Origin: Solidesulfovibrio alcoholivorans DSM 5433
Lineage (GTDB): Bacteria; Desulfobacterota; Desulfovibrionia; Desulfovibrionales; Desulfovibrionaceae
Assembly: GCF_000702665.1 (NCBI RefSeq)
Contig: NZ_JNJA01000002.1
Coordinates: 434,001-498,000, forward strand
Direction: 5' to 3'
Length of the DNA stretch: 64,000 nt
This document shows, piece by piece, positions 3,471 to 61,833 of this stretch (the stretch's first letter is position 1; each line of letters begins with the position of its first letter). Both the position numbers and the translations under genes were made by a program. A model generated the notes under the pieces. The model was not told where the DNA came from, searched no databases, and worked only from the letters and a program-made list of their open reading frames with translations.

Positions 3471-3521
3471 GATGCCTCCGGCGGCCAGGAGGGGATGATC
3501 CCCCTGGACCTTCCCGACGGT
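3471..3521 (+). repeat. Palindromic intergenic repeat, copy A (degenerate)
   Basis: Begins GATGCCTCCGGCGGCC, followed by the core palindrome. The right arm has lost two bases relative to the consensus arms CCAGGAGGGGAT / ATCCCCTCCTGG, so pairing is imperfect here. It lies 20 bp after a stop codon, like the other copies (13197, 32924, 50793, 61764 and the inverted copies ending at 13470 and 51246). No insertion-sequence gene is linked to it. Confidence 0.8.
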
Positions 3522-3602
3522 GATGTCAACGGGACAGCTCGATTGCGGTGGCGTGCGTTTCGTTTTCGAGGAGCAGGCGCTTTTTGAAACGCGACGGCTG
3601 CG

Positions 3603-4211
3603 CTAACGGCCGAAAAAGACCGCCCAGAGCCCGAACAGGATGATGGCCGCGCCGCAGACGCGCTTGATGGCGCGCATCTGTGACAGCAGGCGCAGCCGCA
3701 GCAGTTTCCCGCCGAACGCGATGGCCGCCCACCAGACCATGGAGCCGCAAAAGACCCCCGCCACCACGGCCGAGGCCTCGCTGGCCCGCGCCTCGATCTG
3801 CCCCAGGCCGAAGCCCGCGAAGATGGCCAGGAACCCGACCACGGTCAGGGGATTGGTGAGCGTGAGCAAAAAGACGCTCACGAATGCGCCGGCGTAGCGC
3901 CGCTTGGGTATTTCGGCGGGTTTGGGCGCGCTTTTGGCGAAGCAGAGCCGCGCGCCCATGGCCACCAGGAACGCACCGCCCGCCGCCTGGAGCACGCGTG
4001 CGTTCGCCGCCAGGAAATCCGAGATGAACGTCAGGCCGAACGCCGCCACCGCCCCGTAGAAGGCGTCCGCCGCGGCCGCGCCCATGCCCGATAAAAGTCC
4101 CACGCGCAGCCCCATGGCGATGGCCCGTTGCAGGCAGAGCATGCCGACCGCGCCGAAGGGCATGGCGATGATCGCGCCGATGGCCAGCCCCTTGAGGAAA
4201 AAGGTGAGCAT
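3603..4211 (-). CDS. LysE/RhtB-family exporter
   Basis: 202-residue integral membrane protein with about six hydrophobic segments. The N-terminal motif GAIIAMPFGAVGMLCLQRA corresponds to the conserved GxxxxxxPGP..L region of LysE/RhtB amino-acid exporters, with PFG in place of PGP. TLTNPLTVVGFLAIF is the second family motif (NPK/NP loop). Likely exports an amino acid or small metabolite across the inner membrane; the substrate cannot be inferred. No clear Shine-Dalgarno precedes the ATG. It is the last gene of a minus-strand run after the hybrid kinase and DinB genes, with an 81-bp gap. Confidence 0.85.
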   Translation of the reverse strand: MLTFFLKGLAIGAIIAMPFGAVGMLCLQRAIAMGLRVGLLSGMGAAAADAFYGAVAAFGLTFISDFLAANARVLQAAGGAFLVAMGARLCFAKSAPKPAEIPKRRYAGAFVSVFLLTLTNPLTVVGFLAIFAGFGLGQIEARASEASAVVAGVFCGSMVWWAAIAFGGKLLRLRLLSQMRAIKRVCGAAIILFGLWAVFFGR

Positions 4212-4292
4212 GGCGCAGGGGTACAGGGTTTCGGCAAGGGGAGCAAGGCGGCGCGGCGGGGGGCTAAGCCGTCTCCGCCGCGCGGGAAAGCG

Positions 4293-4808
4293 TCAGCCGG
4301 CAAGGCCCGCGAAAGTCGCGGTCTCGCGCTCGAACCCGAGCAGATCGATGTCCGCCGCCTTGAGGCCATAGGCCCCGAGCAGGCCGTGGATCTGGCCGCG
4401 GTGGTGGGTCTGGTGGTTGAAGAAGTGGTCGAGGCAAAGGGCCAGGGGCAGGGACATGGGTGTGCCTTCGGTGGTGACGTAATGGAGCGTCTCGCCGCAG
4501 CGTGCCGGGTCGAGCGCGCGGCAAAAGGCCAGGGCGCGCCGCTCCTCGACTTCGCGCGCGTTCCCGAGCGCGGCGAGGTCGGGGTAGGGCACAGCGTCAA
4601 CCGTGGGCACGGGCGCGCCCTGGCCGGTGAAGCGGTTGAGCCACAGCCGGTCGGCCAGCACGAGATGGTTGGCGATGGCGAGGATGGAACCGAAATTGAC
4701 GGCGCTCGGCGCGGCCAGGGTTTCGGGCGCAAGGGCCGCCATGGCGGCGTAAAGGCGTGCGTTGGCCCATTGGTTGTAGAGGGAGCGGCTGACGAAAAGG
4801 CGTTTCAT
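4293..4808 (-). CDS. DinB-family protein
   Basis: 171 residues forming a DinB/YfiT-like four-helix protein. The conserved metal-site histidines are visible: H in ILAIANHLVLADRLW, and the closely spaced pair in FFNHQTHHRGQI near the C-terminus. Members bind a divalent metal and many are thiol-dependent transferases; the substrate is unknown here. The start is the internal ATG at 4808, because it opens a full-length DinB domain and overlaps the kinase stop in an ATGA arrangement, indicating translational coupling with the upstream histidine kinase. The frame stays open far upstream, but that part is only the antisense-like shadow of the kinase. Confidence 0.8.
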   Translation of the reverse strand: MKRLFVSRSLYNQWANARLYAAMAALAPETLAAPSAVNFGSILAIANHLVLADRLWLNRFTGQGAPVPTVDAVPYPDLAALGNAREVEERRALAFCRALDPARCGETLHYVTTEGTPMSLPLALCLDHFFNHQTHHRGQIHGLLGAYGLKAADIDLLGFERETATFAGLAG

Positions 4809-60897: not shown

Positions 60898-61413
60898 ATG
60901 ATGCGTTCGAGGATTGTGATTTTGTCGATGCTGGTGCTCATGCTGTCTCTGGCGGGGTTTGGTTGCGCCAAAAAAGCCGGCGGCCCCGGCGACGGTTCCG
61001 GCACCAGTTGGGAAGACCAGGAGCGTGCGCGCCTGGAACAGGAACGCGCCCTGCGCGAGAAGATGGGTCAGGCCGCCAATGAGCTGGCGCAGATGGTCCA
61101 CTTCGCTTTCAACAGCTCCAACCTGACCGCCGAATCGCGCCAGATCCTGACCCGCAAGGCCGAGATCATGCGCCAGTACCCGCAGATCAAGCTGATCGTC
61201 GAAGGCAACTGCGACCAGCGCGGCACGGCTGAGTACAACCTCGCCCTTGGCGAGCGTCGTGCCCAGGCTTCCGCCCAGTACCTGTCCAATCTGGGCATCG
61301 CCGCCGACCGCCTGTCCACCGTCAGCTACGGCAAGGAACGTCCCCTGGATCCGGGCCATAGCGAAGCTGCCTACGCCAAGAACCGCCGCGACGAATTCCG
61401 CGCCACCTACTAG
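60898..61413 (+). CDS. pal: Peptidoglycan-associated lipoprotein Pal
   Basis: 171 residues. The N-terminus (VLMLSLAGFGCAKKAGG) has a Cys24 lipid site with a non-classical lipobox, then a Gly-rich spacer and an OmpA-like domain (VHFAFNSSNLTAESRQIL, LIVEGNCDQRGTAEYNLALGERRA-type) that binds peptidoglycan. It anchors the outer membrane. Last gene of the Tol cluster; a terminator follows. Confidence 0.95.
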   Translation: MMRSRIVILSMLVLMLSLAGFGCAKKAGGPGDGSGTSWEDQERARLEQERALREKMGQAANELAQMVHFAFNSSNLTAESRQILTRKAEIMRQYPQIKLIVEGNCDQRGTAEYNLALGERRAQASAQYLSNLGIAADRLSTVSYGKERPLDPGHSEAAYAKNRRDEFRATY

Positions 61414-61436
61414 CAGCTTTCTTCGCCACTACGCCA

Positions 61437-61471
61437 AAACGGCCGCCGGGATTCCCGGTGGCCGTTTTTTG
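61437..61471 (+). terminator. Terminator after pal
   Basis: ACGGCCGCCGGG pairs with CCCGGTGGCCGT (one wobble) around a three-base loop, then TTTTT. Closes the tol-pal operon. Confidence 0.9.
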
Positions 61472-61763
61472 TTGCCCCCAAAAAAGATTCGCCGTAGTCG
61501 CGTCCTGCCGGCAACCGGCGGTATCCCGTCATCCCAGGATCTTTCACGCGCTCAGGCGAATCCATGGGGCGCTCAATCGCCCGGTATGGGAATAATGGTT
61601 AACGGGGACTACCCTCCGTTGCCGTGACTGCCGCTCTGCCCGGGACCTTCCAAGGCATTGACGCCCCCATACCGCCCTCCGCCAGCCCCGGGCAAGTGAA
61701 ATCTGGTTTAGGCGGGGAGAGGCCGCGCGAGAAATGGAGGGGGGGAGGAGAAAGGGAAGGGGG

Positions 61764-61833
61764 AAGATGCCTCCGGCGGCCAGGAGGGGATGATCCCCTC
61801 CTGGACCTCCCCGACGGGGTTTGGGGCAGCGCC
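61764..61833 (+). repeat. Palindromic intergenic repeat, copy F
   Basis: GATGCCTCCGGCGGCC plus the exact consensus palindrome arms CCAGGAGGGGAT / ATCCCCTCCTGG, preceded by a polypurine tract from about 61735, then a GGGGC/GCCCC mini-hairpin. It lies against the 3' end of the minus-strand pgpA gene. The remainder, 61472-61735, shows no gene. Confidence 0.88.

Follow-up and report, generated by a model that had tools for sequence, protein, structure and literature searches.

REP elements and BIMEs are known as hundreds of short intergenic palindromes in E. coli, Pseudomonas and Stenotrophomonas (excerpts of PMC2817692 and PMC8266576), and the functions proposed for REPs include termination and mRNA stabilisation (excerpt of PMC3733652). 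Hairpin clusters have been proposed as terminators in other bacteria, and a section title of the excerpted report states that poly A/U trails are not required (PMC8355165). Several IS elements were reported to target REPs (excerpt of PMC1525189), and for the IS110 family both the bridge-RNA architecture and the choice of target by the bridge RNA were described (excerpt of PMC11208160). Here we focused on a repeat that is probably a REP/BIME-like intergenic family of Desulfovibrionaceae acting at transcript ends, with neither a GTAG tag nor a detectable RAYT. No earlier description of this repeat was found among the matches listed in the open-access literature, searched by title and abstract start; the multicopy sequences of PMC3543383, to judge from an excerpt of that paper, sit in its supplements and thus outside this comparison.

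The window is a stretch of 64,000 nt from Solidesulfovibrio alcoholivorans DSM 5433, whose genome (hereafter G000; 5.13 Mb, 65 contigs) was surveyed over 864 kb in two contiguous blocks (40 stretches plus the window). Among named species, a dnaE scan placed Solidesulfovibrio aerotolerans closest to it (87% in the best segment). Seven of 75 candidate rows were discarded as false hits, and the other 68 copies comprised 58 exact heads and 10 near-matches chosen by stem score or by eye. Each unit runs from a purine-rich tract of changing sequence through a constant 13-nt head to one or more GC-rich hairpin modules. The head, GCCTCCGGCGGCC, is usually preceded by GAAGAT, the consensus of the six letters ahead of 121 heads, and reads as an imperfect palindrome with one T:C mismatch. 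The final CC of the head opens the hairpin, which measures mostly 20–27 nt (a few up to 36) and has mostly GG-A-CC as its closure. A second short hairpin is frequent, and in most cases GGACC and GC-rich sequence follow, with no U tract behind the hairpin. The arms vary between copies (AGGAGGGG, GGGGGGG, GGGAGGGG, ATGAGGGACC, AAAGGGC and others) and the opposite arm varies in step; the resulting hairpin subfamilies are different between species and recurrent inside one genome. The idea that the purine tract pairs with the head's CCTCC was rejected because GGAGG was depleted (14/65 versus 27.0 in shuffles).

All seven window copies were present where a first-pass annotation had placed them, each with the exact 13-mer. 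Copy 1 (3451..3507, + strand) has a 23-nt tract after the TGA at 3448–3450, the head at 3474–3486 and a damaged hairpin at 3485–3507 that has lost part of one arm. Copies 2 and 3 form a pair with heads outward. In copy 2 (13156..13250, +), a 42-nt purine-rich tract begins after the stop codon (13153–13155) of a gene for DNA polymerase III alpha and leads to the head (13198–13210), the hairpin (13209–13233) and a second short hairpin at about 13234–13250. Copy 3 is inverted (13436..13469, −; head 13457–13469), its hairpin (13436–13458) has one uncompensated A.C mismatch, and the copy ends 10 nt ahead of a start codon. The GGAGG in its reversed head (13464..13468, +) lies 11 nt before the ATG (13480–13482) of a PTPS-family gene, which we take to be queD-like, and is a candidate Shine-Dalgarno sequence for this gene. 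An extra 40-nt inverted repeat (13354..13439) lies between copies 2 and 3 and overlaps the end of copy 3.

Copy 4 (32880..32980, +) is made of a purine tract at 32880–32926, a head at 32927–32939 and a hairpin at 32938–32962, and copy 5 (50741..50846, +) of a tract at 50741–50795, a head at 50796–50808 and a hairpin at 50807–50831. The two double changes quoted in the first-pass annotation were right: A-T is replaced by G-C at pair 3 of copy 4 and at the innermost pair of copy 5. Copy 5 is paired with the inverted copy 6 (51210..51290, −; hairpin 51210–51232, head 51231–51243, tract 51244–51290), the tract of which follows the stop codon of a minus-strand gene (51291–52151), and another extra 40-nt inverted repeat (51067..51152; like the former, without an assigned strand) lies between them. 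Copy 7 (61769..61819, +) has its head at 61769–61781 and its hairpin at 61780–61804, then ACCTCCCCGACGGGG, a possible second short hairpin. It lies 355 nt past a plus-strand gene, and the PgpA gene on the opposite side ends 20 nt from its 50-nt unit. In general, the window hairpins were perfect (5/7, the exceptions being those at 3474 and 13457), and the claim that most copies lie 20–60 bp after a stop codon fits five of them (23, 42, 47, 55 and 47 nt), with 61769 and the minus-strand 13457 as exceptions. Rfam gave no match in the window at gathering score. Elsewhere in the window, AAG/GAA-rich tandem repeats of 18–21 nt were observed within a long open frame at 58333–58626.

Pairing was profiled in 131 of the 140 hairpins parsed from G000 and two same-genus relatives, G004 and G008, after nine with fewer than eight pairs were dropped. 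In the outer eight positions, 98.2% of the pairs were standard versus 83.6% with arms shuffled (best of 1000 shuffles, 86.0%), and the values were 95.0% and 82.6% for the 40 distinct hairpins. As the arms permuted in this test were preselected for pairing, a control with shuffled downstream sequences was added: a strong hairpin starting at head position 12 was found at 99 of 121 exact heads and in none of 605 shuffled sequences.

The family, of which the first-pass annotation had seen seven copies, is genome-wide, with 265 exact heads in G000 (139+126) versus 2 for the reversed-reading pattern, and it is present in 13 of 13 same-genus relatives (117–363 heads). Among ten genomes from other genera of the family, six held 0–8 heads, a seventh had 16, and the remaining three had 31, 114 and 127; in 16 genomes from other families of the order the range was 0–4. 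Apart from G000, a phylum sample of 148 genomes included one same-family genome with 76 heads, three further family members with 0, 0 and 3, and one genome of another family with 20, the rest having at most 8. Carriage by plasmids or phages was rejected, since one 66-nt query had no match at E 1e-5 in either collection. Other arrangements of the head were also sampled. In G022, of another genus, five head pairs (L301–L305) stand back to back around spacers of 33–36 nt with differing sequences, an arrangement opposite to that of the window's genus, where pairs face outward. In G021 (L314, L315), a single palindrome of ~44 nt merges head, hairpin and reversed head, and in another genus of the family same-orientation heads recur every 25–33 nt in tandem arrays (G079:C2:23775-23845 and 73099-73192).

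To place the copies relative to genes, we used a purpose-written codon-usage script that calls approximate starts and misses some small genes. In G000, 65 of the 68 selected copies were intergenic, and, in the stretches sampled from three genomes, 116 of 121 exact heads lay outside called genes. The upstream gene was in sense for 51 of the 65 intergenic copies, and 47 of these 51 lie 8–60 nt past the stop, so that 47/65 begin 8–60 nt after a sense stop codon; the other 14/65 are oriented against the upstream gene. Exact heads in divergent gaps numbered 0 versus 15.7 expected in G000 (P ~1e-8), 1 versus 13.4 in G008 (P ~1e-6) and 1 versus 2.9 in G004 (P=0.19, not significant). The tabulation against stop codons, a check named in the first-pass annotation, showed strongly non-random placement, with gene 3' ends favoured and few or no copies in divergent gaps.

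The majority of copies are single. Close pairs (<600 nt) among the 68 G000 copies had their heads outward in 11 of 11 cases, at head-to-head distances of 45 to 447 nt, and adjacent exact heads within 600 nt did so in 17 of 17 (four stretches from three genomes, G004 and G008 being partly orthologous). Of the 14 reversed copies in tandem gaps of G000, seven (eight by eye) were followed 5–12 nt later by the next called start codon, which puts the GGAGG of the reversed head near Shine-Dalgarno distance; the corresponding counts before a start codon were 1/5 in G004 and 1/9 in G008. Of 12 genomes that have a close ortholog of the PTPS gene, 7 carry a reversed head upstream of it. Reversed copies abutting a start codon may have been co-opted as ribosome-binding sites.

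Hairpin-plus-T terminators were located with a purpose-written finder in G000, G004 and G008 pooled, of which the latter two share ancestry. In convergent gaps they occurred at 1 of 37 gene ends with the element and at 39 of 183 lacking it (pooled P=0.005), and the single-genome tests gave P of 0.12, 0.58 and 0.18, none significant. Tandem gaps had 4/43 with the element and 55/368 without (P=0.49). When all gaps were considered, the counts were 5/80 and 94/551 (P=0.013), with no single genome significant. Judged from sequence, the repeat is likely a transcript-end hairpin of repeat origin.

To follow the evolution of the repeat at orthologous sites, we compared G004 (3 contigs) and G008 (6 contigs), near-complete genomes with long syntenic blocks, most of them 93–96% identical (~94%). 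Of 27 heads in G004, 26 were mappable in G008, where 25 were identical and one was partly deleted. Mapping in the other direction placed 28 of 36 G008 heads: 25 identical, one with two substitutions, one interrupted by an IS110 element and one missing at a place where the upstream sequences disagree. At the 25 sites with identical heads, 13 bodies differ in the 20 nt next to the head. Three of these differences are gain or loss of a module (329109, 374588, 392788), one is a whole swap (122913), and four are uncompensated stem changes (120221, 362706, 367838, 368582); two are matched between the arms (a stem longer by one pair at 29033, and the innermost pair plus the loop at 322418), two affect the loop only (29532, 373425) and one lies just outside the hairpin (14284). 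Compensatory change thus occurs, as a minority. Letter-by-letter constancy belongs to the 13-nt head, not to the hairpin body, and the covariation is largely subfamily difference. Of the proposal in the first-pass annotation, the part upheld is that stems stay paired with changing letters (98.2% versus 83.6%); compensation as the main site-by-site change (2/13), and with it the argument that RNA or cruciform pairing is selected, is not supported in that form. Non-Watson-Crick hairpin pairs in the sense strand were A.C in 14 cases and G.T in two, with several counts coming from related copies; an mRNA wobble signature was not seen there, the trend being opposite, and selection on an mRNA hairpin is thus not supported.

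The tract between stop and head had 64% identity between G004 and G008 (n=17) versus 81% in control sequence, the first 35 nt after stops without the element (n=85, P=9e-4), and its purine content was 81–83% versus 46–47% in the control. Across the genus, four gene ends carry the element in 7/12, 7/13, 2/14 and 2/14 genomes with hairpins that vary among carriers; at the fourth, after the PgpA gene (2/14), it was counted in reversed orientation, at 60 and 411 nt in the two genomes. The gap after a TPR gene, the site of copy 4, is filled in G000 and G009 and empty in G001, G003, G010 and G011, and the direction was probably gain of the element. Upstream of a pseudouridine synthase gene in G002 (L227), the head is cut after GCCTCCGGC, where the upstream sequence departs from that of G000; either a rearrangement or a join made in assembly might explain this.

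Several candidate movers were considered. RAYT mobilisation was rejected because none of the 30 Y1 loci examined holds a head with at most one mismatch within a range of ~1.5 kb, and head-rich relatives lack a Y1 match: Y1_Tnp was without match in six same-genus relatives, including G003 (121 heads on one contig) and G010 (363 heads on three contigs). G000 has two Y1_Tnp matches, one of them intact with its own IS200-like end hairpins, and no head within ~1.5 kb of either gene. Reverse transcription as a requirement was rejected since RVT_1 had no match in 6 of 14 same-genus genomes, including G003 (one contig) and G004 (three contigs); G000 has one match. An autonomous transposon with the heads as its ends found no support in three larger spans among the seven outward-head spans listed; their eight proteins comprise six with non-transposase Pfam families and two without match. 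IS110 as the mover was rejected as well, because G000, with its 265 heads, has no IS110-family match.

In relatives, one IS110-family subgroup of ~1.16 kb (Pfam assignment tested on one copy) lies inside the head at one point, with a CT core, in 17 of 17 copies. These copies are from G004, G006, G007, G008 and G013 (L318-L322, L325-L327, L330, L331, L333, L335, L337, L339, L341, L343, L345). The junctions read GATGCC / CTCCGGCGGCC; the right one is a head half in 17/17 copies, of which a few carry single changes, and 16/17 also showed the left one. In the 15 copies with both ends located by script, the leader contains GCCGGAG preceded by TGCCT, the letters that a bridge RNA would be expected to carry if it read this head. 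By comparison, CTCCGGCGGCC was found in none of 13 examined loci among 16 other IS110-family matches. At one orthologous site with the same flanks in G004 and G008 (L325, L331), two different IS110 subtypes apparently sit in one head, which suggests independent hits.

Taken together, these results point to a REP-like family with a probable role at transcript ends. The repeat would have been spread by an agent unrecognised here (no RAYT found), and at a gene end its hairpin cluster may end or protect the transcript, helping to keep the repeat there. The high copy number, genus-wide presence, hairpins paired despite changing letters, placement after stop codons and outward pairs argue for this reading, as do the fewer hairpin-plus-T terminators in convergent gaps with the element, the empty and filled TPR-gene sites and the IS110 element in the head. 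Against it stand the 14/65 G000 copies antisense to the upstream gene, the low start-codon adjacency in G004 and G008, a terminator contrast that is not significant per genome, a divergent-gap avoidance not significant in G004, the back-to-back pairs of G022 and the absence of any mobilising gene among those searched. A purely selfish REP-like repeat without host function, left where insertion is harmless (outside genes and promoter gaps), would likewise account for the scarcity in divergent gaps, subfamilies that differ between species and recur inside a genome, a TPR-gene site filled in two of the relatives' set (G000, G009) and empty in four, and a head that also serves as an IS target. We consider it rather unlikely, given that two of four gene ends retain the element in 7/12 and 7/13 genomes with differing hairpins (the other two in 2/14 each) and that G004 and G008 share 25/26 heads unchanged, compared with 81% identity in their control sequence after stops.

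The first-pass view, in which selection acts on each pair in the hairpin of a cis-acting RNA element, appears improbable. The 95% standard pairs in 40 distinct hairpins (83% shuffled), the two matched changes among orthologous copies and the sense position after stops fit it, whereas in orthologous copies modules gained, lost or swapped and uncompensated changes are more frequent, the G.U signature is missing (14 A.C versus 2 G.T), the window has no Rfam match, and hairpins also stand reversed ahead of start codons. There is similarly little reason to favour a DNA site at which a host protein binds the head for chromosome organisation, topology or recombination, with the hairpins as a by-product: gene-end placement and orientation to transcription are unexpected for a chromosome-wide site, even if no other part is as constant as the head, which is plentiful in several genera of the family and identical in 25/26 orthologous cases. 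More speculatively, and with a low likelihood in our view, transcript ends could be exchangeable genome-wide. The 13-nt head would then be a fixed recombination or recognition site for swapping hairpin modules between gene ends, with the purine tract changing fast in letters and not in purine content; if true, each species would re-homogenise the terminators of hundreds of its genes without RAYT or reverse transcriptase.

Under the favoured transcript-end reading, this would be a REP-like family without a visible RAYT that nevertheless shows both subfamily turnover and conservation at orthologous sites, and the persistence of REP-like repeats without their transposase becomes a testable question. 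The repeat is also a candidate for transcript ending without U tracts in GC-rich Desulfovibrionaceae, and its head may serve an IS110-type element as a dedicated natural target.

Among known systems, integron attC sites also follow stop codons and are recognised by GTTRRRY/RYYYAAC boxes, an integron integrase and a cassette array. The G004 and G008 genes concerned here sit in long syntenic blocks. The repeat shares with intrinsic terminators (hairpin plus U tract) a hairpin within ~80 nt of the stop and differs from them in the U tract. A MITE has terminal inverted repeats with target duplication and an autonomous partner; the outward heads look similar to such terminal repeats, and the eight proteins of the three outward-head spans scanned include six of non-transposase families and two without a Pfam match. 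As in the hairpin-cluster terminators (excerpt of PMC8355165), at least one hairpin lies within ~80 nt of the stop codon, whereas the hairpins here form one family with a constant head and would end transcripts by inference. The 17/17 subgroup copies at the same head point are comparable to IS110-family bridge-RNA targets (excerpt of PMC11208160), with the difference that the IS uses the element and that G000 has 265 heads without an IS110-family match, so that IS110 does not account for the repeat. GTAG- and CGTC-tagged palindromic repeats are likewise small intergenic palindromes in many copies, while neither tag was seen in this repeat; in the main text of that report, 'Desulfo' does not occur (PMC3733652). 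REPINs are inverted doublets around a spacer, as are the 17/17 outward pairs, and differ from this repeat in its pair distances of 45–447 nt, modular interior, mostly single copies and lack of a RAYT in our search (excerpt of PMC3116915). With respect to REPs and BIMEs, the differences are the letters before the head (consensus GAAGAT over 121 heads, with no GTAG or CGTC tag there in the listed copies), no RAYT (TnpA-REP) gene found beside a repeat copy, a constant 13-nt head separate from an exchangeable hairpin body, and a strong preference for the first 60 nt past stop codons. The similarities are more than 100 intergenic copies per genome (265 heads here), short imperfect palindromes that fall within 20–50 nt, inverted pairs with variable linkers and subfamilies (excerpts of PMC2817692 and PMC8266576), and, as for REPs, use as an IS insertion target (excerpt of PMC1525189).
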